From positions 23,243,328 through 23,307,327 of the forward strand of contig NC_092019.1 of the NCBI RefSeq assembly GCF_042242105.1: a stretch of 64,000 nt of DNA. Reading direction: 5' to 3'. This DNA is from Pempheris klunzingeri. Its lineage: Eukaryota > Chordata > Actinopteri > Acropomatiformes > Pempheridae. Below are positions 2,030 to 56,200 of the stretch, in pieces. The notes beneath the pieces were generated by a model. That model ran no database searches. It saw only the letters and a program-made list of their open reading frames with translations, and was not told the origin of the DNA. Both the position numbers and the translations under genes were made by a program. Numbering within the stretch: position 1 is the first letter of the stretch; each line of letters starts with the position of its first letter.

Positions 2030-7118
<5,089 letters not shown>

Positions 7119-15802: not shown

Positions 15803-17175
15803 TTTATGTCGTTGTACTGGTACTTTTATTGAAGTAAAAGGTCTGAGTACTTCTTCTACCACTGCTAGATTACTGCTTATATAAGCAAGGAGCATAAAGA
15901 CAAACTGTAATAATGCTTCTGAGAGAATGAGGCAAATGGTCACATATTCTTCAGACCAAATGACACTAAATATGGATAAACAAATGACCAAAGGTCGATG
16001 CACATTTGTCGTGTGACACAACAACACGCAGACACATGTTGCATTAGTGTGACAGTGGGACAAAGTCCCTCAGCTCTTTCTCACCAGGAGAACGTGGAGC
16101 AGGAGGCTTCATCCTCACTTTATTACCTGTTAAACGCGATGCTTCATTTACAAAGCGTGCTTGGAGCAGAGGTGCCTCTCAGGTTCCCACGGGCACACGT
16201 GACACTCAGAATGATCATCATAGGGCGTGATAAGAGTGACAAAATGTTTTTTCTTTTTTATTGTTTTCGTTGTTTTTTTCGAGACTGTCCACGCCAACAG
16301 AACTTCAGCACTTTTGGCAAATGTGGGAGTAGTTCGTTCCACTGTCTCTCATGGGAAAACTGGGCAGTCAGCTCCATTCACACTTTATTACCTGTTAGAA
16401 TCGATACATTATTACAAAGAGTGTTTGGGGGACCTTTGGCTTTCGGGTTCCCACGCGCTGCTTCTCATAGTGTCATGAAATGCGCCACCATTTGGTTATA
16501 ATCTCATTGTTTCACAGGTACTTGCAGAGCCGTGCGCAAAAGGCAACTTTACGCACGACACACAGGTGATATTTTCACCAAAGTCTGTGGATTGTTTGTG
16601 GATTAATAAACACATTTCGAATACGATAATGTATTTTGGAACTAAAATTGTTGTTTTTGACTTGGTTTTGTTTTTGACTTTGGTTTTGTCAACCAAAACC
16701 AAAGACATGACACTTTGCAGAACAGTGCATTAAAGAGGGGATTACGCACCCCGGAAGAGTTTTCCTTTTTGCACATTTTACAGAACTTATTCAAACCTCA
16801 CTCATCAGTGAGTCACTGGATGAGCGCTGATTCAAAACGTTTTCTGTTTCTCCTGATTTTCTGGGCTCCACGCTCCTGTTTCTCTCCGGCGGTGTGCGCC
16901 TGAGGACATGTCTCGTTTCGCCCTCCATAACAATGACGTGGGAAGTCTCCCACAGTCATTTGTCTGAGCTTCACGCTGCTTTGGCGGATGTTTGTTGCCT
17001 TCCCTCACATGTGCAAATAAGCGTCACACGAGCTGGTAACACCTTTGACAAGCGCGTGCCGCTGACACTCTACTGGGCAGCTCCACGTGCCCACAGTGGA
17101 GGGTCTGTAGGCCTGCGTTAATCTTCGGATACCTGTCAAATGTGTTAAAAAAGAAATAATTAAGGAAAGGCTGAA
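15803..17175. repeat. Duplicated block, copy 2 (regulatory-looking)
   Basis: Second copy of the block at 14233-15716. TTTATTACCTGTTA lies at 16119-16132 and 16384-16397. TTCCCACG lies at 16184-16191 and 16448-16455, with CACGTG at 16196-16201 and CGTGGGAA at 16937-16944. Relative to copy 1 it lacks about 165 bases, and the E-box overlapping the first CSL site has changed from CACGTG to CACGGG. It ends about 370 bases before the start codon of her gene B, which places it as a proximal upstream element of that gene. Confidence 0.8.
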
Positions 17176-17541: not shown

Positions 17542-18497
17542 ATGAAACTTCTTCAGGATTCAGAGGACGCGAAGGCCAAAAGAAAGGTACTTGTATCATG
17601 TTTTCTCTCATGGAATTTTGCTGATTTTTGTGCAGCCCATCACAGGGTCAGTTATCTGTACTGGGTCCCCTGAGATGCGCATTTCTCCGTATGTGGGACA
17701 AACGCATGGATTTTGCAAATCCTGCAACAATTTCTCCCTATTTCATTCTTTTATTTGACTTTGTCGTGTCTTTCTCGTAGAGTCTCAAACCTCAGGTGGA
17801 GAGACGTCGGAGAGAGAGAATGAACCGCAGCCTGGAGAGCTTAAAGACTCTTTTACTACAGCCAAAGGTAAAGGCCACATAGATGAGGTGGTCAGTTTTA
17901 TCATCCTCCCAACATGAAAGGCCTTTTAATGGTGGCTGAGAATCTGTTATTAACTCTTTGTTTCTTTCTTAGGAAGCGACTCAGCGCAGAGTGGAGAAAG
18001 CTGAGATACTGGAGCACACAGTCCTCTTCCTGCAGAACACTGATTCAGGGATCAAGACGATAGGTGAAGGTGGAGGCCAGAAACAGTCCTTCCAAGACGG
18101 TTTCTCCACCTGCCTGCAGAGAGCTGCTCAGTTCCTGGGACCTGAGGGGAAAGGCCTGTGGCTTGGAGCAGCACTGGATGCATCTTTTGCTGCTCGCTTT
18201 CCCCGTTCAGACTCTGATTCTGCCAGCGTTCAACGGAGACCCGGAGCCCAGTCCTCCTCCAGCTCTCTGCCTCTCAGGAATTCCTCCAGGTCTATTCTTC
18301 GGTTGCTGGTGCAGAGGTCCGGGAACAGACTGTGCACACCCGCCCTCAACGCTGCCAGATGCGTTCAGACCGGCAAAGAACCGCATCGCTATCCCACAAC
18401 TCCCCAACAGCCCCACAAAGTGGCGAGTCGAGCGAGCAAACAGAGCCCGCCCCAGAGCCAGCCGTTCAGCCAGTCACTGTGGAGACCCTGGCCCTGA
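17542..18497 (+). CDS. HES/Her family bHLH-Orange repressor, gene B, 3 exons, 218 aa
   Basis: Tandem paralogue of the gene at 10129-11242, with the same three-exon, all-phase-0 structure: 17542-17586, 17781-17867 and 17973-18497. The N-terminus is MKLLQDSEDAKAKRK. The basic region and helix 1 read KPQVERRRRERMNRSLESLK and keep the HES-type proline. Helix 2 is RRVEKAEILEHTVLFLQ. The Orange domain (FQDGFSTCLQRAAQFLGPEG) is nearly the same as in gene A, and the C-terminus ends SLWRPWP, a Groucho/TLE recruitment motif. The middle is Ser/Pro/Arg-rich. Such proteins bind N- or E-box DNA as dimers and often oscillate downstream of Notch. The duplicated CSL-rich block just upstream fits that control. 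It resembles HES7/her7, but the exact orthologue is unassigned. AATAAA is at 18750-18755. Confidence 0.92.
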
Positions 18498-21936: not shown

Positions 21937-24900
21937 CTACAAGGCAGTTTGTGTGGACCCAGTGGTGTTGTTCAACCTCTCCCCTCTGGACTTCTGCTCT
22001 GAATTTGTTGAACTCACTGCTGCTTGTTCTGCTCTACTGGGACTGTCGCCATTTACAGCTGGCTGGCGATCTGACTGGGTGGCCGCATCCGTGGGAGGCG
22101 AAACAACCGCTCTTTCTATGTGCTCAATGGCTGTTCTGTCTGTCACAATAACATAATTGGGCTCGGGCTGGTGGGCGCTGGAGCGGCGCTGCAATGCATG
22201 CTGGGTGCAGGAAAAGGAACGCTGTCGAGGGGCAGGCTGCGGCGACAGGAAGTGAGGTGTCGCGGCTCTGGGGGCTTCCTGGTGCCTTTCACGATCCTCG
22301 TCCTCTGAGGTCACCTCCTGTAAGGTGCTGATTGGCCGAGGCGAGCGGCCCATGACTCTCGGAGGGACCAGCGCTGTTGCTGATTGGTTGAGCTGCGGCC
22401 GCCAGTTCTGAGGGGACGGGTACTGCACTCGGCTCATCGACCAATCACTGGCAAGACAAGAATGTCATCACAATATTAGGCTGGCTTTTTTTCTTACATG
22501 AAAGGGGTTGGTGTTGGCACTTATAAATATTAAATACAATATAAATATTGGACTTCAGAGCACTTGAAACAGTTATCAATCACTGATTATTAAATAGTTG
22601 CATATTATTTTTCTGTTGATGGACTAATTGATTATCTTTTCAGCTCTACTTGTAGATTCCTCACTGACACATCACGCACACTGTTGTCTTGCACACATTA
22701 CATTACAGAAATCGTACTTTTGTGGAGGTGGGGTCATATCTCGATGCCCTATGATCCCAGAGAAGGAGGCACTTCTGCCCGGCAGACCTTGAGATCCGAC
22801 CCAAGGCGAGTACATCAGAGCGCGCTCCTCCCATAGCATGTCATTGGCTGAGTCGACGTGAACAGGCCCCCTCTGAATTTGATGAGCCAATAGGAGTTCC
22901 AGGACCTGGTGACGCATGCCCTCTCTGGCCACGTCGATCGGACGACGTCCTCTCCGATCGTGCAGCTCAAGGTTGGCACCGTGAAGGAGGAGAAGTCTGG
23001 CCGTATCATAGCAACCATGGAGGGAGGAGAGGAAGAGCGCCGTCTCACCCTTAAAGATAACAAACGCGAAATAAATAAGTATTGTGATTGTGTAATAATA
23101 CAAACAGGTCAAAATTGTAAATGCATACATAAAACCAACTTTAACCAAAAGAGCAGTCTGCTTGTACAGATTTATACGTAGATAAATTAGGATTCTCAAT
23201 CTGAATGCACCAATAAAGAAGCAGTCAGAACTCACCTTGTTGTCTTGCAGGTCCACAGCGGCCCCATAGCGAATGAGGGTCCTTGTTAGGGAGAGGTGGT
23301 TTACTGAGCATGCCCAGTGCAGGGCTGATCTCCCTGAGAGAGACAGTGTGAGTGGAGGGGAGGTGAGGGGGAAGAGGGGAGGGAGTAAGTCAGCCAATGA
23401 ACAACCATTACACAACAGAGTCGAGCCCAGGTGGTGAAGAGAGGGAGAATGGAGGGAAGGGACGTGGAGATGAATCGTATCAGCCAAAGGGGGGAAGAGA
23501 TGACACAGACAGGATAGAAATAGAAAATGAGAGATGAAGAAATGGAGGATGAAGAGACGGCAAAAGCAAAGAGAAAGAGCAACAAAGTTAATGTCCATCA
23601 ACCCGGGTTTGAGCGCTAGAGCACATTAACTTTGTTCTGAGTCAGATGAGGGCAACAGGGGAGCTGGAGGAGGAGGAGGAGGTGGAAGAGACGGAGAGAT
23701 GAGCACAGGTCGGGAGAGGAGGGACACAAAAGGAGGACGTGAGTGAGACGGGGTAAGTTACACCAGTTACTCAGCCCCTCGGTGCTCCGGTGGCAGAAGA
23801 TAATGGCTTTCTCAAGAGCTCCACATGTCATTTTTCTCCACGGTGAGCTTTAACCCATGCATGCACTGGATCCAACTCGTCATCGTCACCACAGTGGGTT
23901 GTTACAGATTGTTAACACGAAGGAGGCGTTTCAGCCACACGCTTCAGTCAGGCCATGCATAACGCCTCGAGTGTCTTATTTGCGCTTTAAGAGCGTAAAC
24001 GCATCCTGCAGTGCATTTTAAAGTCTATTTTCCGTTGTTTTCTGTACGTGAATACAGTGATTACGCGCTCAGCTCTGAGTGCTGCCACACAAACACGGAT
24101 GACCTACTGAGTCAATACTGTCCCTGAACGCATCCTATGAAGCTGCTGCTCTAAAACGTGCTGCTTTCACTGCACAGGCAGTGTAAACACGCTGTCAAGT
24201 CTCAAAAAATACAAAATGTTATTAGATGGAAGAATTTTGACATTTTTTTTCCAAGGACATTTTGCAACTGTTTGAAATCTACCACACAGACAAATATGAG
24301 AAATCTGACACAAAAGTGTGGACTATTACATAAAGTTCATGAAACAGAGAAAATAGTTTGTGTATACTAATGTTCTCAGTCATTGTGAGTTAAAAAGCAT
24401 GTTTGATTAGTTCATACATGAATGGGTTAAAGCAGAATCTCAGTTTATGACCTCTGAGATGACACAGCATTTGCAGGAAAGCGGTTGGATCTTATTCTGA
24501 ATCACATGAGCATTTATGAAACTGCATTTGCACATTATTCTTCATTACTGTTTTAATCTGCTTGCCTTATTCGATTGAGGTTTATTTGATTGTGAACTGT
24601 AATTTAAATCAAATGAATTACCATTTGTAGCATTCATTGTGTGCTAACTTTTAGAGGGATAAAAACAGGCACCAAGAATTACATGCAAATACTATTAGAC
24701 TTTCAGGGACTAAACTAATATTAGTGGCTGTGACACTGAGGCTTTACCAGTGTGATCAGTGTTGTTGACGGGAACTCCTGCTCTCAGCAGCTCCAGCACC
24801 ACTCTGTCCAGCCCGCTACGCACCGCTCGAATCAGAACCACAGACCCATCCGGGCCACACCACTCTGCCGACTGCCAACACAACCAATCCATGATGAGTA

Positions 24901-27716
24901 TATAATACAGACATACACAAAGTACAGATTTCACATATACTGCAAGTTATTCATCTCCTGTCCTATATTATACATTATCTGTATTCTATTTATGTGTATT
25001 CTAATTTTTTTCCCCCACCTTATGTTAACCTTATGTTAAAATTAATTGATTTTAATTCATTTTTAATATGTTTTAATGTTCATTTCACTTCTATCTAATG
25101 TGCATGTCATTGCTTTGTTGTAAAGGGCTCTGAGCTGCACTTCTTGTATGAAAAGTGCTGTACAAATAACATTTATTACTAATATTAATGTTGTAATTGT
25201 GTATAATTATTGTTAAGAGAAAGAAAATTGTAAAACATGAAATCAAAGGGGCTTTTAGAAGGAAAAACAGGACTACAAGCAGGGACACAACTCAGTCAAA
25301 TAAATAAATCTGAGTGGTGAACCATGTCACAGTATCCGCAAAGATAAGAGAGGGAGAATAAATAAACTAAATAACACTCACAACATGGAATAAAAATAAA
25401 GTGAACCAGAACAGACCTGCTGAGGAGGACTGAGCAGAGGCGGGGGTATGGCGTTCCTCTCCCATCCTCTAGGAGGAGCTGAGGAAGAACAAGATTCGGT
25501 TCAGGAGGATCTCCAACTGTGTCAGGATTCGGACACACATTCAAATACTGTATGTGGAAGGACACGCCGCACAATTTACATGTAATGACTTAAGTCCCAG
25601 ACTGGAACTGTGCACTGCACAGTCTGTCAGTATGAGTCCTATTTTACTTGCACTGTGTGTCTAGTGTCTCCATGAAATCCTTGTATGAAATCCTCTTGTA
25701 CATTTGTTGAAGTTGTGGAATACAGTGATTCTGATTCTGACAGTAAACACAGGCTGATTTTAAGCATCGCACATGTTTCAGACTGACTATACAGTGTGAT
25801 TTAATATGGAATGGGTGTATGATAATATACCCTTTATTTTCTTGATTAATCATTTTATCCAGAAAACATCAGCAAAGTGTGAAAAAGCCCCCATGTGACA
25901 TCTTCGAATATTACGAAACGCAAAGGTATTCATTTATTCTTTTTGGATTGGACAGTTAATAGTGAAGAAGCAGACAGCGTGCAAAGAAGAGAGTCTCTCA
26001 AGATATTCAGTTTCCAATGATATGAAACAGAAAAAGTAGCAAAACCTCATATTCGGGAAGCTGGACCCTGAGATTTTCTTTTTCCATTTTTGTTCTTTCA
26101 GGTACCCAATGATGTGATATCATCAAAATAGTTGTATAGAAATGACACTGAAATTAAGAAGTGGTATTCACCCAGCATCTGTCAGACCAGTGAACCCACA
26201 TAATAACTTATAAGCTATAAAACGAATAAACTAGAATTTATGTAAAGTATTATCTATGTAGTAGACGGGGTTCAAACTCAATCTGCGGTTTACAAATGTA
26301 TATATAAGATTTTAACAGATGTCATCCAATCAGAAACAAGGATTTTTTCCACCAAAAAACTAACTTGTAAGTAAATGAATGAATGAATGGATAGATGTTA
26401 AATCTTACGCTGTACAGGTCTGCGGGGCTGTGAGTCTCCAGCCCGGTAGTGCTTCTGCTCCTGGCTCCTGTGGTCACAGATAGAGGGGTCCTCCTGTCGC
26501 CTGGAGCATCTCGCATTAATGTCTTCCATTGAACTCTGGGTAAAGTCTGTGTCGCTGCCTATATCCTGGTCCCTTTTGAGAGGTCTGGAAGCCAAAAGCG
26601 CAGTTTTGATACAGCATATTAAGAAACGTTCACACTGGGTTTTCCTTGTGGGGGGAGGGACGGACAACAAAGCTTCCTTGTTGCAACTAAACTGGGAACG
26701 TTGTGGTTATGGAATATGCGTATAATCTGCAACTATCAATTATGTTCATTATCCACTAGTTTAATGAATTAAATGAAGAAAAATGCCCATCACAATTTCC
26801 CAAAAGCTCCAGATGAAATCTTCAAATGTTTTGTGTGTCCAACAGTCACAAACCCAACGCTCTATTACTTGATTACTTGATTACATGAAAGAGTATCAAA
26901 TCTTCACTTTTCAGATGTGGGAATCAGAAAAAATGAAACTGTTGCCAATTTATCTACTAACTGTGTCACCAGTAGTCACAGTGACTTGCAAATTAACACT
27001 AAATCATGAGCGTAATAGATTAAAGGTGAGGGAGGTTCAAGTCTTTGGGACTGGTTGGAAAAGCTAATAAGGTCGTTTTGTTTCCTCCAGCCTTTTCATG
27101 AGCTTCACAGGATGAACACTTGTTTTAGAATGCACCACATTTGCCTACATGACATCATTCCCCCAGCAGACAAAACATCCTCCCATGCCTCTCAAGTCAG
27201 CTCCTCTCACCGCATTCGAATGGCATCCTCCCCCAGCGGTTCCCTCCTTCTCCTTTTCTCTGCTTCCTTGGCTTTCTTCTTTTTCCTCAAGCTGATCTTC
27301 TCTTTCTCTCTGCTGGATCTCACCCTCTGCTCTTGGGGGGCTGTGTGCGGTGTCGCGGCCTTAGACTTGGGGTCGCCGTCTGTGGCTGTGGATCGGTGTC
27401 TCACCCTGCTACCGCCTTCCCTCTCTGCCTGCTGCTGCCTCACCCTCCTCACCACCAAGAACACCACCACGGCCAGTGCCAGCGCCAGGCCGACCGCTAT
27501 GGCGATCACGGCCCACAGCCACGCAGGGGTTGAATCTTTGAGGAGAAGAATAGAAAATCTATTTTACTACTATGAGGTTGAATGATTTTTCTTTCCTTTA
27601 TTTTAAGCTAAGTGTCCCCACAACTAAAACTGAAACCCCGCAGCACCGCCCATCAACATATGTACACACTGGAAACGGAAAGGTGTTTTACAGTGTTTTG
27701 TTTGGCTGTGAGCTGT

Positions 27717-27750
<34 letters not shown>

Positions 27751-30700
27751 CAGGACATGTGAGCCTACCTTTGACTTCCTTTATCTCAATTTCCTCCTCT
27801 CTGCTTCCTATTTCCTCTCGGACACCTCTAATACTGATGACAGCCTTCAGCTCGGAGAGGTTGGGGAACGAGCCAGGGTTTAGCAACATCACCGCACGCA
27901 GGAAACTGGCTGCTTCGGTAGCAGAGGGGAAACAGGTAGAGGGCAGACGGGAGCATGGCCTGTTGTCCACTTGGAGGAAAAGGAGGGAGCTAGTAAAGAG
28001 AGACAGAGAAGGAAACGTTAGGAAAGAGCATGTACGTCATCGCTGAGGCTTGTTCGAACGGGTAGGGCTGTCAGGATAAAGTGTTAATAAACTCTGGAAC
28101 CTTCTCAATCGTTTGCAAAAAGTCACACCTTCTTATAAAACAAACGCAAAAATGTACCTCTGAGATAACTTACTGCTAAAATGGATACACAGAAGTTAAT
28201 ATTCTCATATCCCTGCTGACACTTTAAGCTACTTTTAAGCTGCCATCTTGGCCAGGTCTGCTTCGCAAAAGAGGTTTCCAGCCTCTATGGGACTAAAATC
28301 AAGACTACGTAACTTCGTTTGAGCAGCTGCAGCGGTCGGCCTTAGTTGGCACAAATGGTAATTGCAGGACGCTGGTACATTTAGTTCTGTGCACAGACTT
28401 TGACACAACACAAGACCAGGAAAACTGAAAACTTCTGCACCCACAGCAGTTAGACACATAGACCCGTATAAGGTGCTGTGTGACACAGTGCTGTAAAGCA
28501 TTACACACTTCTCACAGGACATTGTACGTATTAAAGGAAGAGGCCCAGCGCGGGAATGAAAGAGGTGCCATTCTCCCTATTACAAGTAAGTGTCAACTAA
28601 ATCAAACTGATTTAGTTTGAATAGTTCAAAAATGTTGCTTTAACTGGTTAGACAAAATTAAATAAAACACAACTCCACTCCACTACTTCTGACATTTCAC
28701 TCAACACCTACCCATTTGAATCAGTCGGGGATGCCTGAGTCAGCAGGTTGGCGAGCTGCTGAGGGTCGACGTCAAACAGGTTCCTGTTAGTGGCGAGGGG
28801 GGCGGAGCCTCTCAGTTTGAGTGGTGAGTGGAGGAGGACACTGAGCGCCCAGAGCAGGGAGCTGTTGGAGAAGGTGCCACGGTTTTGTGGGAGGCTCGCG
28901 TGAAGGACCAGAGTGCCTTTGGCCCACAGGGGATTCTGGTGTGTGAAGCAGTCGCTGCCATCCCATCCACAGGGGGCGCTGTCGCATCCCTGCTCGCAGT
29001 GGGAGTTGGCGTAGTGGTCGCGACAATACTGGATGTGGCCCGGACTGAGAGCCATAATAGGGAGGGATGAAGCGATGTAAAGACAAGAGGAAGAATAAGA
29101 AATCTGACAAAATAATCTCCGCTCAAGGACTACCTACTAGCTTTTTCCCCCTCACAAACAGATTTGAACAAAGACCAGCAGATGTGGTATTTAGCTGTCA
29201 AACTCCTATTTCTGAGGAATAATGACCATTAATGATTAAACATCATTATTTCTACTATCATTTGTGCTCTGCTCTAATGAGTTCACTTTGTGGACAGTTC
29301 AATGCTACTCTTTTCATGCACAGCCTCAAATCAACAATGTGGTTTTAATATTGTGTTTCATATTGTGTTTATTGAACAACATATAAATGTTATTATGTTG
29401 CCTGCACCTAAGCCAAAAAAACCCCCTTTTTATTATTTCCCTATTTAATTATACTTAGCAGTAGAACTGCAAGTGTACTGATTAATAGCAATAAACAGCA
29501 GTGAATTAATTAAATTAATGATAATAATAATCATAATATCAATAATCATGAAGTTCTTAATGAGAGAAAAAACTTTCAAATATTAATACAAATACAAATA
29601 ATACAAATTAATGCAAAAAAAACAACACATAAACAGACATACAACAATTCAAAAGGACAAACATAACTGGCATAAAGAAGCCAAAGAAAACATGAAATGT
29701 TCTAATTCACAACATTCATTTTTAAGATGGAAATTGTTTTTCTATGTTCTCGAAGACACTGATAATGATAAAGTGTTTTTACTTGCACTGGCCCCGGTCC
29801 TTCAGGCAGTCGAAGCCGTCTCTAAGGCACTCAGGCTCCATACACTCTCTGTCACATGACCCGTTTCCGAACTTGTCCTTACACTTTCTGTTGACGGGAC
29901 ACTGGCCCCACGGATCACCAGACGCAGCTGTGACACAAACACAGATTAGCGCAAAAAATGTGGCAGTAGTGCACAGTGTTGTGATAAACTGAGATCATAT
30001 TGTAACAGTTGTAGTCAAAAATGGAATAATGGTATATTTGCAGAGTGATATACATAGAAATGGGCTACTGTATGTCTTATGAGGGTATTATCCATAAATG
30101 AATAATATGCTTGCAGCACTGAGATATGACAGGCAAGCAACACACATTCATATTCACATGTATGTATGTGTGCCTGTATGTGTAGATGACGTCTTATTCA
30201 TTTCAACTGTGCATTATTTCATTAGTTTCATTTAACTCTTGAACCAGACATTACACATAGCTACATTTATTTAACTGACCACACAAACTGGTTTCACAAG
30301 CGGTTTTATCGCAGGACCAACTTCACTCTCATATTCAAACCGCCCATTGTTTCAGAGCATTAGCAACTATTCACAACAATGCAGGTCAAGCCATGAAAAG
30401 TGGGTCCTGATACGGGCCGTTAAAGGGAACAGGAAATGGGGCCGACATAAACAGGAAGTTTCCAGGAGAAGCGAATAGCAACAGGAAATAGATTGGGCTG
30501 GGCCTTGATAAAGGTCGAAGGTCGTCACCGTGGCAATGAGGAATGTGATGGAGTTGGACAATGGGCTTGGCAGGTGTGTGCGGGACCGTAAAATCATAGC
30601 AGAAAAAAAAAAAAAGCCTGAACAATAGAACTGAAATTAGACATTTTAGGCTTTTCACTTGATCAGCAAAGAAAGGCGCAGTGGTACAGGGGCAATAAAA

Positions 30701-31157
30701 ATACATATACATACACACACAGTCCTTATATTTCTATAAATATGAATGTAAGGAATAACAAGAGTGTCAATAAGAAACAAACAAATGAAGCTGTTAATAT
30801 GAATGAAACTGTTACGCAATAAAATAGTTTTCACTTTGGAGAGATATTATGAAATGTTAACTCCACATCTCAATTGACCAAAAACAAACACGCAAAAAAT
30901 GCCTACATCAAAATATAACATATACTTATATAACTTAATATAACTGATTTAATGCAGCTCAGAGACTAGACGCCGCTTTTTTCAAACTGGTCATCAGATT
31001 CAACATTTCCGTACACAGCCTACAGCCACAGGATAGAGTTTCACTTACCTTTGAAATGTGTTTCATGTGTGTACAAAGGAAGAGAGAGCGGGGTGGCTAA
31101 CTCACCTTGACATGTCCAGCTCAGTCCCAGCAGAACAAACGTTCTCAGAGCCAACAT
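21937..31157 (-). CDS. EGF-less Notch-like receptor, 11 exons, 792 aa
   Basis: Exons, 5' to 3' on the minus strand: 31157-31106, 29927-29783, 29044-28712, 27989-27769, 27535-27211, 26584-26409, 25478-25417, 24871-24748, 23333-23236, 23049-22718 and 22447-21937. Junctions are GT/AG and phases agree throughout. The protein starts with a signal peptide (MLALRTFVLLGLSWTCQ) and goes directly into two complete six-Cys LNR repeats (about residues 27-100). Next come NOD (from about 102), NODP with VDNRPC and CFPSATEAASFLRA (177-250), one membrane helix (AVIAIAVGLALALAVVVF), a basic juxtamembrane stretch, a RAM-like region, three recognisable ankyrin repeats (about 445-590) and a Ser/Pro/Gln-rich tail. 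EGF repeats, LNR-A and an obvious furin (S1) site are missing. It sits beside pbx2, as NOTCH4 does in humans. Zebrafish databases list a 'notchl' gene that may correspond. Confidence 0.88.
25113..25195. repeat. Probable LINE/SINE 3' tail fragment
   Basis: TTGTAAAGGGCTCTGAGC followed by AAAGTGCTGTACAAATAAC and an ATTTATTA-type tail resembles the conserved 3' tail of fish L2-type LINEs and their SINE partners. Only the tail is seen. Confidence 0.5.
27716..27751. repeat. (GT)n(GA)n microsatellite
   Basis: GT array followed by GA, lying just inside intron 4 of the Notch-like gene, immediately after the donor at 27768. Open-frame read-through into it gives a false His-Thr run. Confidence 0.9.
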
Positions 31158-41177: not shown

Positions 41178-44100
41178 ATGCAGAAAATGAGCTACTTCTT
41201 CCCTCTGCTCTTCGTGTGCCTGGATGTGTGCGTGGTGCACGCCATCCGCTTAGCCCAGCTTTCACCTGCCCTCCTCTCCCATCCCTTCATCACCCTGTGG
41301 GGAGGAGCGTTGACCAGGGCTGGCCTCCTCGCCCTCCTCACCCTCACCTCCACTGGATGCCCGTCATGGATGACCAGTTTCGCGGGCCTGCAGAGCTTAG
41401 GGGTCCTTTGCTTCCACTTCCCGGTGTACACTGCTCTTCTCTGGGCGCTGGGGCACCCCACCATGGAGGAACTGTGGGGGTGGCACTCCTGGGAAAGGGT
41501 GGGTGTCTGTGTTTTGCTGGTTGTTATACTGCTTTGTTCGAAACCTTAGTTAGCTGCAGGATGGATCCCACCGATACAACAGCAGGCACTTTTCTTAACG
41601 CGTTTCTTAGTGTATCAGTATTTCACTGGGGGTGACAGATCTAGAGCAGGTCCCAGCATGCATTATGGCTGCCAGACTGTGGTGTGTGTTCATGTGCTGG
41701 TGGAACTGCTAGACTTCCAGTTCAGCTGCTAAAGAGTTTTGTTATCAGATGCTATTTTGTCCCAAAACTGAACTTTGAAAAGAAATGATGGACAAACATG
41801 GACACCCTAAAATGGTGATGTGGAATAGTGCCCAGCCCAAGAGCACTTGGCAGAGATGCCAGGTAGGTAGTGTAGATGCTAGTTGTGGAATGTATCTAAG
41901 TACATTTACTCATTTGCTGTACTTAAGTACAGTTTTAAGGTACCTCTGCTGTACCTGAATGTTTCCATTTCATGTTGATTTATACTCTTACTACATTTCA
42001 GAATATAATATTGTTATATTATTATTATATGATTTATATCACGTCATGTTTTTTTCTGGATTCGTGCATTAAACCACTAAATCACTTGTTTCGCAGGTGT
42101 TACAGGGTTATGTAGTGACACTTGTGGCGTGGCTCTACTGGAGTCGATATGCGTCATCTCTGTTGCTCTCCTGGGGCCGATGTGTCTCTTCTCTTTTGAC
42201 GAGAGCACCACCCAAGATGCCCAAAGAGGACACCAGTACCCCTCTGAAAAGACTGATGGGGTACATGCTGCCCTACCTGGGGCGCTTTGTTGCTGTGCTG
42301 TTTCTCGTGGCTCTTTCTTCTTATGGTAAGCGAAATAACACCTTAGACCTAACAACTACAACGTTTTGGAGTTATTTCCTGCAGTTTTTGCTTTGTTGTT
42401 TGCGGCTTCATGCACAAAGGAGGTAATACTGATTAAAAACAATCCGTTTTGAAACAAGCACGCCTGATTGAACTGTGAAATGAGACGGCTTTCAAGTAGG
42501 GCTGTAGTCCTTCAGGTTAATGTAGAAATTTGTGAATCTTGGAAAGAATACACTCAACACTCAACATATTTTCCATCTGAAAATTGTCAGTTAACCTAAT
42601 TCAGTATATGTCAGTAAAATGAAATCATACTAGAAGGATAGTAAAAGTCTAAAGGTTTGCCTCAGTCATAGAGCACCAACAGACAGTTAAGTCTCCACTT
42701 TGCTAACTGTAGGTTGATCTAACAGCGTTAAGAGAGACAGTTTTGCCTTCCCAAAGATCAGATTGTGATAATATGAACTCCTGACCTCAGGTGAGATGGC
42801 TGTTCCTAAGTACACTGGTCGTGTGGCTGACTGGATCATGAATGAAGAATCACCTGATGCCTTCACAGAGGCCATCACAGTCATGACGCTGATGACTATC
42901 GGCAGGTAATGTAACCTTGAAGTTTGTATGATACTGGAATTTGTCGAGCTCGTAGTCTTCAAAAATCTCATCTTTATCTCTTTTCGCTCTTTTCATAGGA
43001 AAGAGCAGTTCATAATTTAACTGGAGAGCAAACGTGATCCACCTGGCAAAACATCACTTTTAGTTTTTGCATTTGAGGTTTTGATGCCAGAGTCCGATTA
43101 TTCCGCCTCAATAGAATGTTTTCAAACCCCAAATGTAGCAGCACAGTTTGATTTCTATGCTTTTTAAAAAGTGCTCCTCAGTACAGAATTACAATTTATA
43201 TAGCAAAAAATCCCCCAAGTGAATTTTTTTCTTTCCATCTGAAAATTTAAAGTAGAGGTGCTCGTTTAACGATATCCATGCACTGATACTGGAACGTGTC
43301 CTCTGTCATGTGTTTCAGCGCTGTGATGGAGTTCATGTGTGACCTCATGTACAATGTCACTATGAGCCGTGTGCACACCTCAGTGCAGGGAGCTGTCTTC
43401 CAGGCTGTGCTGAGACAGGAGATTGCGTTCTTTGAGGCCACTTCGACAGGTAAATCACGTGCATGCTGTAAAAACCACCGACTCAACAGAAAGTCATCTG
43501 CAAGCGGAAGACTAGCATATCCACTGTGTCACGAGTAAATCCATGCTTTTAATTATTATCAAGGGAAAGCTCAGGTCCTGATGTTAATGGATTTCCTAAT
43601 AGATATACTTGACAGAATGTGTGTGGGCTGGTGAAAATCCAGAGTATACTGGATTTTAACAACACAACGAATACATACTCACACCGTAACTCCTTTGACA
43701 AGGCTATGGCACAACTCTTTTCTCAGGTGAACTGGTGTCCCACATTACCACGGATACCAACGATATGAGCGAGGCACTGAGTGAGAAACTGAGTCTTGTG
43801 ATGTGGTACACAGCACGCTTTGCTTTCCTCTTGTTCTTCATGGTGAGCCTGTCATGGAAAATGTGCCTGCTCACTTGCATGGGACTGCCCATCATCTGGG
43901 TCATACCGGAGCTGACTGGACACTTCCACCAGGTAAATATGAGCTCCCTTAATGTCCCATTCTCTTCAAGGCTGCTTAAATCAATACTTGTTTATCCACA
44001 GTGGAAAAGACTGTTTAATGTAAAAGGTTTTGCTCAAAGTGACGAACTCACAGAGAATTATTCCCAATTTAGCAGTCCACTCTTCACTGTCCACTCTAAT

Positions 44101-47100
44101 CTGTGTTTCCAGTCACAAAAGGCAGCTCTTTTCAGCAAAATATCTGTGATGAATCGCCTGCATACTAACTGCTCAGCGCCAGGCAGGAGACAAAGTTAGC
44201 AACTAGCTGCTGAACATACTGGTGCATTTAGCAGCGAAAGAGACAGATGTTTCCCTCAGGAGTTAAACAGAGAGGGAATATTATACGGTATATTTGCCAG
44301 TTGGACAGAAACATGTTGTTCAACTTTAATTTTACAAGGAGATAATATGTCTGTGTTGTGCTCACATCTTGTCGTGCTTCCTTCTGTTAATGCAGCACTG
44401 GAAGCTGTATAAAAAACAGCTGCTGTAGCTCGTAGGCAATGCAACATCTTATCCCAATATTTCCAGTGCAGCTGTGATCATGATTGTGTCCATCACTCAT
44501 TTTTGTAAGATATCAAAGTGTCACAAATTCAGTCTATTTTGCTTTTCTCTATATTCCAGTCCATTGCTGTAAAGGTTCAGGAATCGCTGGCTAAGGCCAA
44601 CCAGGTTGCCACAGAGACCTTCTCCTGCATGAAGACAGTGAGGAGTTTTGCTAACGAGGAGGGAGAGACAGAGAGGTACAGACGGACGCTGGAGGACACT
44701 TACGCCCTTAATAAAAAGGAAGCAGCAGCCTATGCAGCCTCCACCTGGGCTAACAGCGTGAGTTGAATACTGATTTGAGTTAAAAGTATGCAGTGATTTC
44801 TTAGCATATGCTTGTCTGTGAGTATGAGGCAGTATTCTAACTTAAATTATGCCAGAGAATACAAATGAAAATACAAAATGATTTGATTGGATGAGAAATC
44901 ATTAAAAATGAGACCAAACATACAGGCTTACTCCTGGTGCAGATAATAAATCGGTATGTGGTCTACACTTTTTGAATATGGGCAACCAATCACCTCATGA
45001 ACTTTGATGCCGATGCAGTGATGTGAATCAATTAGTCTTACCATCCCTAGAAAATTTGATGAAATACATGCAAGAAATGAAACACGAGAAGTTTTAAAAT
45101 GTGCATTAGGTGGTGCGTAAGTGGAGCAGAAATGGGGCAAGAGAGTGGCAGCTACTATAGTATATACTATATCCATGCTTATGCCATATGTTACTCCAAA
45201 GTGAGCTCTTTGGGAGAACTGAAACTTGCTATAGAGACCCCAAGAAACAAAGAAAAAATACACTAATACCCTACATTCATTCATTTGTGTAAACCACTAT
45301 TTATGTTCCTCTCAGATGACCACTTTGGCCCTGAAGGTGTTCATTCTGTACTATGGAGGGACTCTTGTGACCAGGGGGTTCGTTAGCAGTGGAGACCTGG
45401 TGTCTTTCGTCCTCTATGAGCTACAGTTTGCCTCTGCTGTTGAGGTGAGCCACAAGCCAAGATCAAGGGAATAAGCTTGAATGAAATAATTATGTCTTTG
45501 CATTTGTTTCCTTTACTGGTTGATTGTTTAAATATGTAATTCAGTCTAAATAAATGGTGCCTCATTGTACAAACTCTCTTCCAGGCTGTCATGCGTTATT
45601 ACCCGGAGGTGAAGAAAGCAATTGGTGCCTCTGAGAAGATCTTTGAATATCTGGATCGAAAACCTGACGTACCCCCAGAGGGAACTTTGGCCCCGGGGAA
45701 TCTTGAGGGACACATTCAGTTTAAAAAAGTTACATTTTCTTATTCAGGGAAGACAGATGAAAACAGTCTTGTGCTTAAGGTATGTATCTATGTATCTATG
45801 TATCTATGTATGTATGTTTATCTCCTGACTCTTTACCAGTTCACCCTATTCTTCTCTGTTACCAGGGGGTGTCTCTGGAGGTAAAGTCCGGCCAAGTCAC
45901 TGCCCTTGTGGGGCTCAACAGATCAGGGAAGTCCACCTGTATCAAGCTGCTGGAGAGATTTTACCAGCCCCAAGCAGGGGAGATCCTCCTGGATGGGAAA
46001 CCACTGCAAAGCTACAAAGACCAGTACCTACATGAAAAGGTGGGTTATTTTTCCAATTTTAATTTCTCGTCCTTACTGAAGCAGTTTTCAGTTTTTATAA
46101 ACTCCGGACAATTCCCGGAGAATCAGGTCTGGACGTCCAGAGTCGCCCCTTTCACACATGTAGCACACAACCACACAGTCTATGCACACAACAGGAGACT
46201 GTCTGTCAGACTGTTACCACCCACTGAAACGCTCAGCTTGGTTTAGCCGAGGGCTGCAGGAGGCAGGACATGAGGCTAAGGTATGCCTCGGTTGAAATTC
46301 AGCATTTTTAAGTGTTTTCCAGAAACAAGCGGCTTTAATTTTACGCGAAATCACAGGAAGTCCACTCTGCCATTAGCGCTGCATCACAGCGGAGTGTTCA
46401 GGCCCAGTCTAATAGCTGCACCACTGTGGTCCAATCAAAACACCGGAGAACTACATAAGATACGAAATCAGTGTACCAAAAATTCAGGATGACAAATACA
46501 TATGTGAATTCTTTAGCTGAGAACATATAACGGAAATGAAATTAAAGCAGCCCCAAAGGAATGAAATTAACATTCCTTTGCTCCAGTTTTTTCTTTCATC
46601 TAACACTTCTCTAGCATTATCACACACTGGTCACAGAACTATTGTAAGGACACCTACTTGCACTCTTCTCGTTTTATTCTGCTGTTGGCATCATTGTAAA
46701 CCACTCTCAGAGTTACTGATGCTTCCTGTTCATCCTTTCATCCTGTTTGTTTACAGATTGCTGTGGTGGGCCAAGATTGTCTACTGTTTGCTCGCTCTGT
46801 GCGAGAGAACATCAAGTATGGCTACGAGGACGTCTCTGATGAGGAGATGTACAGGGCTGCCAAGCTGGCTAATGCCCACGAGTTCATCACGGAACTGTCA
46901 AATGGATACGACACAGGTTCGACCCACAGACTCATCAACTGTTAAAGCAGATCTTAAAGCGGTGTTCTTCTTGGGGGCTCTCACTTTAAGTTTAATTTAA
47001 GGATAAGCTCAGATGTTTACCCAGTGATAGAATGAATGCCTGTTGTGATACATGTTTAGTAGTGGGAAAAGAGTTTCTCTAAAGTAACTCAGGCTCTTCA

Positions 47101-47894
47101 GGTTGCCTGGTATGATTGTGAAACAGACATTAAATTGCATTCTATGCGGCATTAAAAAGGTCTTTAACGGGCTTAAACTTTGTGAACCCTTTTGTGAGCC
47201 TAGTGAAAGGTCTAGTGATTTTATTAAAATTTCATTTTTACTTTACTTTTTACAAAAAACTTGTATACGATAAAAATCCTCCACACCAGACTACAATTAG
47301 AAAAAAACAACCATATAGCAACAACAAAAAAATACTACAACATAGTTACTTAGAATTACAATAATTTCACAAATAATCACAATAATTATAAATCAGCTTT
47401 CTTATGCAAAATATCCTTTGTTGACCAACGATTGTCCAACCTATGAACAGATGCTGGCGAGAGGGGAGGCCAGGTGTCTGGAGGTCAGAAGCAGCGCATC
47501 GCTATTGCCAGAGCTTTAATCAGACGTCCTAAAATCCTCATACTGGACAACGCCACCAGTGACTTGGACATAGAGAATGAATACCAGGTAAGAAATTCTT
47601 GATTTTCTCACATTTTTTCTCCTAATGCTGTTTTCTACATGTAACACCAGTTGTGATCGACAGGTCCACCAAACTTTGTTAAACCAAGCCAACGACTGCT
47701 CCGTGCTGCTGATATCCAACAAGATGAGTGTAGTAGAGAAGGCCAACCATATAATTGTCCTTGACGACGGGATGGTGAAGGAGGAGGGCAGTCATGATGA
47801 GCTGCTAAAGAAAGGAGGCCTTTATGCTGAACTGGTGAGAAAGCAGAATATGGGCTTTCACCGTCAAGAAGAGGAGAGGAGTGATGCACACTGA
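41178..47894 (+). CDS. tap1: TAP1 antigen-peptide transporter half (ABCB2), 12 coding exons, 741 aa
   Basis: Half of the TAP1/TAP2 ABC transporter that moves proteasome peptides into the ER for MHC class I loading. Coding exons: 41178-41498, 42097-42325, 42791-42905, 43319-43449, 43727-43932, 44560-44757, 45316-45444, 45585-45779, 45866-46039, 46757-46916, 47451-47587 and 47664-47894. All phases agree. TAP1 rather than TAP2 is indicated by [47 protein letters not shown] and [11 protein letters not shown]-type blocks (here [11 protein letters not shown]). In the nucleotide-binding domain, Walker A reads GLNRSGKS (524-531), signature VSGGQ (628-632), Walker B LILDNATS with Asn653 at the catalytic-Glu position, and H-switch ISNK with Asn684. 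Mammalian TAP1 also has non-catalytic residues (Asp, Gln) at the last two. The Arg in Walker A is unusual. The start could instead be the second Met at 41187. Confidence 0.93.
41880..42000. repeat. Fragment of AAGTA-rich teleost repeat
   Basis: Intronic tap1 sequence with TGTACTTAAGTACAG, CTAAGTACATTTACTC and TTTCCATTTCATG, typical words of the same repeat family as at 36.9 and 39.9 kb. Confidence 0.6.
45780..45818. repeat. (TATC/TATG)n microsatellite at an exon border
   Basis: A GTATCTAT/GTATG tetranucleotide-type array starts directly at the donor of the tap1 exon ending at 45779 (AAG then GTATGT). Confidence 0.85.
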
Positions 47895-50253: not shown

Positions 50254-53200
50254 ATGGAAGCGGCCGTCAACCCGCCTCACGACAGGTAAAGTCTGCGGTC
50301 ATTTTTCTATCGATGCCTGGTTGAACCGAGCAGCGCACATTAAAGACCAACGTTAAGCACCACATTATAACGTTAGCTACCGTTAACGCCATCCTCCCGA
50401 CAACAGCGCTAGCTTGTCAGCCAACGGTTGCCTAAGGACACAGGCTGATTTAGCTAACGTTAGCTTCGGCAGCAGACCGTAGCTTGCCTGATTTCTACTA
50501 AATTATAGCAAAAATGGCAGCCTCGTTCAGCATTTTCTTTTAGCTTTGTAGCTTCACAAGTGGGCTGGCACAAAGAGGGCAGATGACAGCTGCAGCCCCA
50601 CCGGCTGCTCCAGTCGGCTGCTCCCCGCCGACTGTCTGTCAGTCGGGTCATTCATCGCTCAGGCACCCTGCTAACGCTAATCTCTGTGCTCATGTGACTA
50701 GCACACAAGATACATGGCAACAGATAACGTGGCCCGCACGCCTCTAACGTGCAACAATTGCCAGCAGCCCTCGGTGAGGCGTTATGTTTGTGCGGTGGTG
50801 TTGTTGCAGCCCGGCCAGGCGGTTAGCTTAGCTTCCAGCTCGCTGCTCCTGCGCCGGTCTACAAACGTCTGTCTGCTGGGGCAAAATGACTGGACTCGAC
50901 TGGCGGGTGAAGAGTTTGACCTTTTTCTGAAGCTGCACCGTTGGGTAAAGATTTCCTGTTGTGGGTCTTTTTTTTTTGTTGACAGAAAATCGCTGTCCGT
51001 CATTCGTGTGTGTCACGGTGAGGCAGTGTTTACAAACAGCGAGGGCGGGGCGTCCTAACCACGCGATCACCAGCTGTTGGGCTGTTGGATCCAAGTCTGA
51101 CTTCTCTGTCATCGCTCTGGTTACATGGTGGAGACTGAGTGGAGGCTGAAGTTGGTTGGATGCGGGCTGAAAGAGCAAACGAGCACCACGCCAGGGTCCC
51201 TGATGGACTCTGAAGTTAGACAATTACCTCCAGCCTCCCCCTGCATCCCTTAATATTTACCCAGTGTTATGTGTTCATATTTAGATACTTTTCTCAAATG
51301 TGCTGCAATTATTGCAGCTGTGAATGACTCAAAGCATGGATTGTGTCTGTTTTTAACCCTGTCCAATATTTCTTTTTAAATTAGCATTCTTGCTGTTTTA
51401 TCTTGTACTTTACTGGACACGCATACTCCAGAATTTTTTTAACCAGCAAGTCTCATAATAAAAGCAAAAAAAATTACAAAAAAGACTTTCTAACAAATTC
51501 TGTGCTACAGGTGCATCATCGCTGTGATCCAGTGTATATGCAATACAAGATCACAAATCACCTCAAGTCTCAGTGACCTGTTATTTCATGTAATTTACAA
51601 TTACATTACTCAACGAAGATGATCAGAAAGCTAAAATAAGCGGTGCTCACATACTATGTATTTGACTTGAAGTTTATTTTGAAATCCATCCAGTACACGG
51701 TGGCCATGTTTCTCTCAGTGCTAATGTGGTTCAGTCGGTCTTCGTGTTGCTGGGAGTCTGACTGATGCAGAAAATCAGCTCACAGGCTTTGCCACAGTTT
51801 GTGTGTCAGTGGGGCAGGTGTGTGTCCTGAACTCTGGGTTGAGATTTAACTGCTTCTAAATCTGGTTCTCGTGTTTTGCTTTAAGGGATGGGGGGGGGGA
51901 ACTGACTGCATGGACTGATATACCTCCCAGGTCTACATAACACGTGGTCTGTGTGGTTGTGTTGAACTAGTCTGTAGTCTGTAGGTACCTGTGGCTTGTA
52001 GAGTTTTCTCTGATCCTTCTTTTACTTAACTCTATTAATTTGGAAATGTGTCCTTTATATTTCAACCCATTCTTAAAAGTACCTGTAGGAGTACTGGGCA
52101 GCTGTAGGGCCCTGGGAACACCCCTAGTTCTGAGAGCTCAGGGTCTCAGTTAAGGGCACTGGCACATTTAGTCCCTTTTATAAACAGGAGGAAGACCAAA
52201 CTCACAAGTTTCATACAGAAAAGAGCCGTACTGAGATTTGGACTTAATGTGTCTGTACTTATTGGACCATATGTTGTTTATTTTAAAATAATTTTAGTTC
52301 TGATTCTTTCGTGTCATAGTTTTGTCTATTTATGTTTTTGTGACATTTCTCTCCAATGAATACTGAAAGTAAAAGCACAAAGAAGTTCAGACATGGTTGA
52401 TATATTTACCCTTTTGCTGTGCAATGTTACTATTTTGTTGTGTTTGTGAACGGCCTCAAGCATTCTTGCAATTTTACAAAAAAATTCAAGGCCAAATTAC
52501 AGTTAATTGTAAAATTAACTTTTTAGACTAAACTCATCTAGCAAGCAAGGTGAGTGCCAATGAGTGACAAGACGCAGGCTCACTAGTTAATCCTGTCTTA
52601 AATACCACAGTGGGTGTGTGAGACATTCACTTTAATGTCTGATTTCCTTCTAAGCAGAAGCTGTTTCCTATATTTATGTCACATACATTTCTGGGGTCTC
52701 ATCACCCAACATTCATAAGTGAATGTTTGTTTTTTCTTCGCTGGCGTGGACTCGTGTGATGACGGTTCCCACGACTTTGTTAAAAGCAGCAACCTATTGA
52801 TAGAGTCCCAGTTCCCTAGATGATGGTGTGTGGGCAGAGCTATAGCTTCACTGGTCATGGGTTATATGAATGAAGCATGTATAGGCTGCACTGTTTGACA
52901 TTAGCAGATTTTCCGTGAGCGCATGCTTTCGTGGGAGTGGATGGGTCGGCGAATCGATGGCGGGCTGCATCAATATGGATGGCAGAGGTCATAAAGCACA
53001 GTCAACTTCAAAGTGCCACTTCCTTCACTGGCAGGCATCTCTCTTTCTCTCCCTCTCCCTCTCTTGGCCTTGTATGTCTTTTTCTGCCTCAAAATGGGTT
53101 CACTTCTCCTTTTTCCTAATCTTTTATCATAGTTATCATTCTCATCTTTTTTTATTGTGCAATGGGATTTCTGTTTTGTTTTTTTTTTAATTTTTTTAAC

Positions 53201-56200
53201 CATCCTCCTCCTCTCTCCTCTCCAGCTCTCTGGTCGGGTTGGCCAGTGGTGGGATGGACCAGCACACCAGTTCAGGCAAACGAATTCGCAAGCCCTCCCT
53301 GCTTTATGAGGACTTTGAGAGCCCGTCTCTGCCGCACACGATGGCCCAGGGTCCACCTGTCCCACCACAGCCGGCAGTGAAGGATCCCAACCGGCCGGGC
53401 CGCATGACCAACCAGCTGCAGTATCTCCAGAAGACCCTGATGAAGTTGTTGTGGAGGCACCACTTTGCCTGGCCTTTCCATGAGCCTGTTGATGCTTACA
53501 GGCTTAATCTACCAGTGAGTTCAATGCAGAAGCTTCAGCTTTCACTTTGATTTTGTTGAGTCATGTTTATGTTTCTGCAACTCGTGGTGGTGCCTAGGCT
53601 AAGATGTTAAAGTAAAAACCCTCTACTGGGTGCTCCTTCCGGTCAGTTTAGTTGATTTGCAGTGTTTAACATCCTCCACAAGTTATGGTTTCATTTGACA
53701 CACGTCTCACTCCTGTCATTCATTTTCAGGATTACCATAAAATTATCAAGCAGCCCATGGACATGGGGACCATTAAAAAGCGACTAGAGAACAGCTTCTA
53801 CCGCAGTGCTAGTGAGTGCATACAGGACTTCAACACAATGTTCACCAACTGCTACATCTACAACAAGGTAGGTTAAAAGGTAAAATACTGATCAACATGT
53901 TAGTGCCCTTTTCATTTCTCCCTCAGTCTTTCCTTAATACGATGGGCTCACTCTGCTCATTACATTTAACAGTAGGTGGGCCTGGTAAAACCTTTTAGTT
54001 ATACTGATGATTTAGGCCAAGGTGCAGACCCAGGGATTCTTTTAACATTGTGGGGAGGGAAATTTGTCTTTTTTCCCATGAGAAAATGTTCTTCTAATAC
54101 TTTGCAAACAGAAAATGTATGGGATACTCTCCCATGGTATGTGACAACTGAACATGTGCCAACCTGCGTAAACTTGGGAGGCAAAAGGGAAAATGAAAAT
54201 GGAAAGGTGACAAAGAAAGAAATGGCTACAGCACTGAACTGAGAAACGGTTGATCTGAAAATTAAGTGTAGATCCATTACCAAATAATATAATGTGGTCT
54301 TTTTCTTTTGTAAAGCATTCAACCGCTACATCTTTCATTCAGCTTTGACAGTGCATCTGTGTGTGCCAAGGGTGTCTAAGTGGTAGCTGCAGTGCATGGC
54401 AAAAACATTGATCCTGTCGTAGCATCAACACAACCAAGGTTCTCACTATCGGTTTCATTATAGCTGATTTCACTTTTGTTATTCATTATCATATATAAAA
54501 TATCAGAGGCAGTGACAAATCCCAAAGCAAGTTCCAAGTATTTGAAGTTGTGTCCAGTCAAAGTTTTGTATTTAATGTACGACTGATGTTTTCATCTGTC
54601 AGCAAACATATTAGTCAGCTGATTATTGAAACAATAATGAAACACATATGTTGAAGTTAAAATCTGTCCCAAGAACAATCCCTTTTTTATATTCTGGCTT
54701 CTTTGCAGTGTATTAATGTGTTTTATAATTATTATTATTCTTTTTTTTTGGGCAGCCAACAGACGACATTGTGCTGATGGCCCAGTCCTTAGAGAAGATC
54801 TTTCTCCAGAAGGTGGCCTTGATGCCCCAGGAGGAGGTCGAGCTCCCTCCTCCAGCTCCTCGAAGCAAGAACAGCAGGGGAAGAGGTCGCAAATCAGGTG
54901 AGTCTTGCAGAATTTGAATAAAGTTGTTTATGATGATTGTTGTTTTGGTTCATTCCAGGAATCACCTGAAAGCTTCTGTTATGACTGTGCAGACTGGACA
55001 CATTTTCAGTCACATATCTGCCTCCGTTATTGGCATCTTATGTACAAATGAATTACAGCTCAGCAATAATACAAAATATTTTCCCGTTGCAGAAATGTAT
55101 CATGTAAAAGTTGCATGACAGAAGCCTTGGAAGAAGCGGGTTATTACTGGACACATTCACTGCTTTTTACAAACTATTCTGAGTTCTAGTACTAAAGTAG
55201 AACGTACTGTATCTCTCAGCTTCGAGGGCCCAGCAGGTGCCAGCAGTGTCCCAGTCGGCCTACTCTCCTTCTTCCTCGGACACTGGGGAGTCCATGCTGG
55301 CCAACTCTCCCCAGACTGTGCTGACCAAAAGCCTGCCTCCGGCCACCATCATGGGCCTGCCCCCTACACAGCCCACAACTAAGGTATGTGCCAAAGACAT
55401 GCTGATAATGATGATCATCGTTGTGTTGTATGTCATTATTACAATCATAACATAGACGTTTCTATCAAGTTTGTCAATTGCTGCACACACAAAAATTGTA
55501 TTATTGTCCAAAAAACACAAATGTCTGGGGGGGGTTTGCTGAAACAGGAAGGTGTAGTGATTCAGAAAAGTTGCGAAATATTTCATATATTCAGCATTTT
55601 TGCTGGAAGAAGAAATATGTAGAATTACATTGTGAGTGGAATAAACATTGTGATCATAGCGATGTCCAACCTCTCTGCTTGTAGAAAAAAGGTGTGAAAC
55701 GTAAGGCAGACACCACCACCCCCTCCACCATGGGCTTGTCTGTGGGCATGTCGGGAGGAACGCACATGGTGGGCTTGGGGAAAGGAGGCCACGGGGGCCA
55801 AGTCCACGACAACTCCATGCACACCATCTCCTCCATGGGGGGCATGAGCTTGGAGACCCCACCTGGGATGGGCCTGGTCAGGAGCCCCGGAGGCCCAGTC
55901 CTGCTCCAGCCAATGATGTCTGGCACTGGGCGCAGAGTGGGCAGCGGACGCCCCATTAAACCCCCCAAGAAAGACTTGCCCGACTCTGTTCAGCCTCAGC
56001 CGTCGAGGAAGGGCAAACTAAGCCCTCAGCTGAGGTACTGCAGTGGGCTGCTGAAGGACATGCTGTCAAAGAAGCATGCTGCGTACGCCTGGCCTTTCTA
56101 CACACCTGTGGACGCAGCCGCACTGGGACTTCATGACTATCATGACATCATTAAGTGTCCCATGGACCTCAGCACCATCAAGGTGACTCGTACGCTTTTA

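Follow-up and report, generated by a model that had tools for sequence, protein, structure and literature searches.

The notch-type gene and its exons

The 64,000 nucleotides of Pempheris klunzingeri DNA analysed here (assembly GCF_042242105.1, contig NC_092019.1, positions 23,243,328 to 23,307,327 of the forward strand; hereafter, the window) contain, on the minus strand at 31157-21937, a notch-type gene that encodes no EGF repeats and belongs to the family named notchl in zebrafish. A preliminary description of the window had proposed an 11-exon chain that closes in frame at 792 amino acids and in which the signal-peptide exon joins an LNR exon in phase. The chain was rebuilt from the window, with GT-AG borders in all introns and matching phases, and its coding length of 2379 nucleotides corresponds to 792 amino acids plus the stop codon. 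Exon 2, to which exon 1 is joined, opens eight full codons before C27, the first LNR-B cysteine. The features of the gene are listed below.

31106..31157, minus strand: exon 1, signal peptide (MLALRTFVLLGLSWTCQ), ending in phase 1 (gene model; signal peptide judged by eye)
29783..29927, minus strand: exon 2, end of the AB linker (GDPW) and LNR-B (gene model, Pfam, PDB alignments)
28712..29044, minus strand: exon 3, LNR-C and the first part of the heterodimerization domain, HD (gene model, Pfam, PDB alignments; strands and helices 110-168 of the model of orthologue P0001)
27769..27989, minus strand: exon 4, rest of HD (NODP), S2-like A-V dipeptide and juxtamembrane stretch (gene model, Pfam, P0001 model, alignment)
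27211..27535, minus strand: exon 5, transmembrane helix (about 27524-27444), basic stretch that lacks the RAM WxP motif, and RRRREPLGED, which resembles a nuclear localization signal, NLS (gene model, alignment, P0001 model)
about 27245-27225, minus strand: REPLGED part of the NLS-like stretch of exon 5
26409..26584, minus strand: exon 6, conserved DIGSDTDFTQSSMED box (gene model, alignment)
25417..25478, minus strand: exon 7, linker (gene model)
24748..24871, minus strand: exon 8, ankyrin repeat 4 (gene model, NOTCH1 alignment, family alignment)
23236..23333, minus strand: exon 9, ankyrin repeat 5 (gene model, NOTCH1 alignment, family alignment)
22718..23049, minus strand: exon 10, ankyrin repeats 6-7 and GRSASFSG box (gene model, NOTCH1 alignment, family alignment)
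21937..22447, minus strand: exon 11, C-terminal tail with RPISTLQEVTSE and APRQRSFSCTQ boxes, stop codon (gene model, alignment)

The best database match, a predicted protein of Epinephelus moara, is likewise 792 amino acids long and matches the query along its full length (100%) with 90% identity; an exon chain arising by chance is thereby excluded. Three other relatives (P0005, P0050 and P0090), at 789, 799 and 779 amino acids, are complete proteins, and their longest source contigs measure 2989, 3191 and 2748 bases, respectively. Contigs of about 3 kb are too short for a 9.2-kb, intron-rich gene and must therefore represent either spliced transcripts or an intron-poor copy, so that, if the gene is equally intron-rich in those species, they lend transcript-type support to the junction between the signal peptide and the LNR region (31106/29927). 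The EGF-less 11-exon gene is confirmed as real.

Domain architecture

Two LNR stretches (Pfam PF00066) are present, and PDB alignments show that they are co-linear with LNR-B and LNR-C of NOTCH1 and NOTCH3. LNR-A and the AB-linker plug before LNR-B are missing, with the DPW start of LNR-B kept, so that the known restraint of Notch by three LNRs, cited in the preliminary description, does not hold for this protein with two. In NOTCH1, L1482 and F1484 of the AB linker fill a void by strand beta-5 (PMC3145759). The HD/NODP domain is recognized by Pfam, a PDB alignment, the P0001 model and Foldseek. This predicted structure is that of the orthologue, not of the window's protein, has a mean predicted local distance difference test (pLDDT) score of 51 and leaves the LNR modules unresolved; only its folded HD-like domain and the ankyrin part, with four helix pairs, were used. 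The top Foldseek match of the model is the ankyrin domain of mouse NOTCH1, and three NOTCH3 chains of the negative regulatory region (NRR) are among the best 50; the 50 rows obtained with VIA-align are all ankyrin matches, mostly designed ankyrins, and include no Notch.

The ankyrin part yields one ungapped match of 129 residues to the ankyrin domain of human NOTCH1 that ends at most 4 residues from the chain end. Accordingly aligned, its four repeats are read as ANK4-7, with ANK1-3 apparently gone; the seven repeats of canonical Notch were found neither in the NOTCH1 alignment nor in the P0001 model. None of 25 proteins has a furin-type S1 pattern (RX[KR]R) between LNR-C and NODP, and none of the 25 has a RAM WxP within the 140 amino acids before the NLS. 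Besides the ligand-binding part, about half of the signalling part has been lost. From the diagnostic domain set given in PMC2770060, the protein possesses LNR modules (two of the canonical three) and ankyrin repeats (four) and lacks EGF repeats; this definition would exclude notchl, which is hence better described as Notch-derived than as a canonical Notch receptor.

Orthologues in fishes and the stepwise loss of domains

Two database searches were performed, in each of which only the 8000 candidates sharing the most words with the query were scored, the first among proteins of 436-1386 amino acids and the second among proteins of 780-2481 amino acids. The first yielded 191 matches; the best 120 of these, some of them partial, are 55-90% identical to the window's protein, come from teleosts only where the organism is named, and in no case have an EGF family in the precomputed Pfam lists. 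The second yielded 115 matches, seven of which are non-Notch ankyrin proteins, and added, among others, Scleropages, Arapaima, Paramormyrops, Amia, Acipenser ruthenus and Polypterus. Gar and relatives outside the ray-finned fishes do not appear among the matches listed for either search, and a query with the bichir NRR for full-length NOTCH1-4 returned only the bichir protein itself and no tetrapod, shark or coelacanth Notch.

The EGF-less form is widespread in teleosts and present in the bowfin Amia (794 amino acids), but the sturgeon Acipenser ruthenus (1445 amino acids) and the bichir Polypterus (1719 amino acids) retain, by pattern count, 14 and 21 EGF repeats, respectively. Among the proteins P0001-P0129, these two are the only ones with any EGF repeats by pattern. 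Residues 182-298 of the bichir protein, a part of its EGF array, still align with the ligand-binding EGF11-13 of NOTCH1 (2vj3, residue range from PMC3415683). Both proteins already have just two LNR stretches and no WxP, and the bichir ankyrin match to NOTCH1 begins, in our own reading, at about the third repeat. The retention of EGF repeats together with two LNRs and no WxP indicates that the receptor was cut down stepwise. When the losses are ordered on the accepted fish tree, LNR-A, the RAM WxP and the first ankyrin repeats disappeared before the remainder of the EGF array, the last repeats of which were lost ahead of the split between bowfin and teleosts. The NRR tree unites the fishes in a single clade whose members follow the order bichir, sturgeon, bowfin, teleosts.

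Of 127 proteins (P0001-P0127), 109 have the LNR-B start motif no more than 35 amino acids from the first residue and 9 have it further away; in the other 9, the motif is unmatched. None of the 12 LNR cysteines varies across the 33 aligned orthologues, which were chosen from the roughly 127 retrieved. Among 22 aligned proteins, mean pairwise identity reaches 98.3% in ANK4, where 37 of 39 positions are invariant, and is 92.0% in ANK5, 84.5% in ANK6 and 81.6% in ANK7; the four boxes outside the ankyrin part, one in the linker and three in the C-terminal tail, are conserved at 81.5-92.2% (92.2% for the APRQRSFSCTQ box), and the least conserved parts are the C-terminus (36.0%) and the signal peptide (37.7%). 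Given the strong identity of ANK4 and the boxes and the invariant LNR cysteines, the gene is intact and conserved, and is not decaying.

Absence of EGF repeats

The original observation that no EGF pattern lies between the exons or in the 1.6 kb upstream now extends to the whole window and to the aligned orthologues, none of which (0 of 33) has an EGF family by Pfam. An EGF profile built from the bichir and sturgeon repeats, which produced 23 and 16 domain lines when run on the two proteins it came from, reached a best E value of 0.13 against the 2733 open reading frame (ORF) fragments of the window; a control LNR profile recovered both LNR exons, at 8e-14 and 1.3e-13, as well as one weak extra ORF (plus strand, 49116-49181, E 0.008). 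When the two EGF regions were compared with the window by tblastn, the single weak match (E 0.49) overlapped the LNR-C exon, and an EGF regular expression matched the window once, in a low-complexity stretch. EGF exons overlooked within the window were considered and are ruled out by these profile, tblastn and regular-expression scans of its full length.

An artefact of the gene model, with EGF exons missed or situated outside the window, might still be suspected given that most relatives are automatic predictions, that exon 1 has merely 52 bases and that the first search was blind to proteins longer than 1386 amino acids. However, 64 kb show no EGF signal, with exons of a transporter gene already beginning about 11 kb upstream of notchl; the aligned orthologues uniformly lack EGF families; the second search, which reached 2481 amino acids, disclosed EGF-bearing forms in sturgeon and bichir only; and complete proteins are encoded on contigs of about 3 kb. 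Such an artefact is extremely improbable.

Genomic neighbourhood and the probable relationship to NOTCH4

The other genes of the window are the following.

3418..5301, plus strand: PBX-type gene (PBC domain ORF 3418-3864, homeodomain WFGNKR 5284-5301)
17542..18497, plus strand: her/hes-type gene with basic region, helix 2 and C-terminal WRPW, its last exon without a Pfam match
42073..47894, plus strand: exons of a TAP-type ABC half-transporter (TAP1 and ABCB9 not separated)
53200..56212, plus strand: exons of a BET (BRD2-type) bromodomain gene

The transporter was initially taken for TAP1 (TAP1 154.4, ABCB1 153.3, TAP2 123.3 bits), an assignment that was dropped because TAP1 and ABCB9 tie when more exons are included (TAP1 264.5, ABCB9 263.6 and TAP2 198.5 bits among half-transporters; two-copy ABCB1 chains score above these by matching twice). 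The second bromodomain of the BET gene fits multi-domain BRD4 chains first and, of the single-domain chains, BRD2 best. A pattern search of the window for a GPSM3-type GoLoco motif found none. The order in the human major histocompatibility complex (MHC) is PBX2, GPSM3, NOTCH4 (PMC1309616), and a salmon study groups NOTCHL, GPSM1B, TAP1, PBX2 and BRD2A within a single set of selected genes (PMC6786245); these are presumably neighbours there. The NOTCH4 position that the preliminary description assigned to the gene is supported at the level of gene families, by the PBX, TAP-type and BET genes.

A second her/hes-type gene is located at about 10432-11242 on the plus strand. Both her/hes-type genes show an EKAEILE helix 2 and a C-terminal WRPW, and both sit between the PBX gene and notchl, a notable occurrence of Notch-target-type repressors beside a Notch gene. 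A gene model of Nibea albiflora fuses notchl with a her/hes-type gene, and these neighbours therefore stay together in that fish. Upstream of the her/hes-type gene at 17542, the segments at about 14380-14480 and 16000-16110 are nearly identical and seem to belong to a longer tandem duplication. Two minus-strand ORFs, 33775-32834 and 34954-34163, are related through a common WKQNRQKQLRMEGK...GPxCTSxACxRASNR pattern without a Pfam match, and a 235-amino acid ORF at the window edge (734-27, minus strand) has no Pfam match.

The NRR tree, built with a presumed NOTCH4 sequence, neither shows nor rejects NOTCH4 orthology, and a PDB look-up with the same NOTCH4 NRR found no NOTCH4 chain. As for earlier work, a NOTCH4 orthologue was reported absent from the 2005 zebrafish assembly and from Fugu in a paper that also missed PBX2 (PMC1309616), and a 2023 paper places Notch4 in mammals only and calls its origin debated (PMC10277265). 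Zebrafish notchl, described as previously uncharacterized, was picked from an arterial cluster and is expressed in the dorsal aorta and intersegmental vessels (PMC9338088). Because of the PBX, TAP-type and BET neighbours and the endothelial expression, notchl probably represents the NOTCH4 lineage of ray-finned fishes.

Proposed function and its alternatives

We lean, at slightly better than even chances, to the view that notchl is a NOTCH4-derived receptor that was uncoupled from its ligands stepwise and now dampens or modulates arterial Notch signalling. Lacking EGF repeats, it would be unable to engage DSL ligands. What is left of the cap over the HD, LNR-B/C, would still restrain S2 cleavage, because S2 was cut in vitro only when LNR-B had been removed in addition to LNR-A and the linker (PMC4537882). 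Whether tethered or shed, the cytoplasmic part would offer an ANK4-7 surface with acidic residues at the places that face RBPJ and MAML in NOTCH1. D460 and D446, both invariant in 33 of 33 orthologues, presumably correspond, by our own counting along NOTCH1, to the ANK4 residues E2008 and D1994. In NOTCH1, E2008, together with D1972 of ANK3, bonds MAML1, and D1994 bonds RBPJ (PMC9118731). With the high-affinity RAM anchor missing, this short surface might touch the RBPJ/MAML complex but would not hold it firmly, which makes a damper likelier than an activator; canonical Notch signalling in the arterial endothelium would then be modulated, most likely dampened, rather than supplied with another ligand receptor. 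More tentatively, at somewhat less than even chances, NOTCH4 would be neither a mammalian novelty nor lost in fishes, having been rebuilt stepwise into a ligand-blind, RAM-less, membrane-bound Notch damper with two LNRs and four ankyrin repeats, its gate and nuclear module cut first and the EGF array last, and kept in arterial endothelium.

Several observations weigh against a NOTCH4-derived damper. The NRR tree joins notchl to NOTCH4 at just 64/39 and with a very long NOTCH4 branch, and NOTCH1 as the sister is not rejected (p-AU, from the approximately unbiased test, 0.44). TAP1 is not separable from ABCB9 (264.5 versus 263.6 bits), and the first bromodomain of the BET gene fits BRD4 and BRD3, with BRD2 not separated from BRD3/4. 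A lone Trp, absent from the window's protein, stays in the RAM region of 29 of 33 orthologues, which may leave these with weak RBPJ binding; only 24 of 33 orthologues carry the S2-like A-[VI] pair in the corresponding position; and the ANK4 contacts could also support activation.

The tree, the automatic names that read notch homolog 1, and the fact that PBX and BET genes also adjoin other NOTCH genes would agree with descent from a NOTCH1 duplicate or another paralogue instead of NOTCH4. Such a descent is unlikely in view of the TAP-type transporter in the window, the salmon gene set in which NOTCHL accompanies TAP1, PBX2 and BRD2A, and the listing of human NOTCH4 beside PBX2 in the MHC (PMC1309616); among the other paralogues, NOTCH2 as the sister is rejected by the NRR tree (p 0.022) and NOTCH3 nearly so (0.063). 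With regard to function, the main rival is an effector independent of RBPJ, in which ANK4-7 and the serine-rich boxes would attract further signalling proteins, either while membrane-bound or once released. The four non-ankyrin boxes are conserved much like ANK6 and ANK7, and mammalian NOTCH4 has RBPJ-independent endothelial effects (PMC9054879), but no partner is known and a Pfam domain covering the boxes was not found, so that we rate this role as rather unlikely.

The early suggestion of a ligand-independent or differently gated Notch was reasonable, although it overlooked the loss of the RAM WxP and ANK1-3, on account of which a simple always-active Notch is not the leading reading. A constitutively active receptor would be cut freely at S2, its nuclear fragment activating RBPJ targets without ligand, as might be anticipated from the missing LNR-A and AB linker, with the plug residues known from NOTCH1 (PMC3145759), the retained basic NLS-like stretch, and the invariance of D446 and D460 at the presumed RBPJ- and MAML1-bonding places (PMC9118731). 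Against it stand the 12 LNR cysteines, invariant in all 33 orthologues as for a working cap, the failure of LNR-A and linker deletion alone to permit S2 cleavage in vitro (PMC4537882), and the missing RAM WxP and ANK1-3, which together render constitutive activity distinctly improbable.

If notchl is the fish counterpart of NOTCH4, the question of the origin of NOTCH4 becomes directly testable, zebrafish provides a natural experiment in which the gate and the ankyrin module of Notch are uncoupled from ligand binding, and strong conservation of a Notch would not depend on the EGF repeats by which the family is defined. If, furthermore, the NOTCH4-derived damper is real, it would be a vertebrate Notch that encounters no ligand at any time. 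Named in databases already, notchl is not new as a gene; within the open-access literature, subscription journals being outside the scope, we found neither an EGF-less vertebrate Notch described nor notchl identified with NOTCH4, and the open-access passages on notchl contain no discussion of its missing domains.

Comparison with known systems

Zebrafish notchl ('notch receptor, like') and its teleost orthologues belong to the same family and share the same architecture, with no sequence difference that would set the present gene apart; several of the best 120 matches of the first search are named notchl or 'Notch receptor, like'. Mammalian NOTCH4, with its three LNRs, lies in the same kind of surroundings at the gene-family level. 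It has been called endothelial-specific (PMC10119233) and differs from the fish protein in having EGF repeats (PMC10119233) as well as RAM and seven ankyrin repeats (PMC3192765). LNR-B/C and the HD of the fish protein align with NOTCH1-3, and ANK4-7 with NOTCH1, whereas the EGF repeats, LNR-A, the RAM WxP, the furin-type site and ANK1-3 are lacking. NRARP has an inhibitory role and, unlike notchl, is soluble, without a membrane or LNR part. Its likeness to notchl is that of a short ankyrin-repeat protein found in one complex with RBPJ and NOTCH1 (structure title 6py8).

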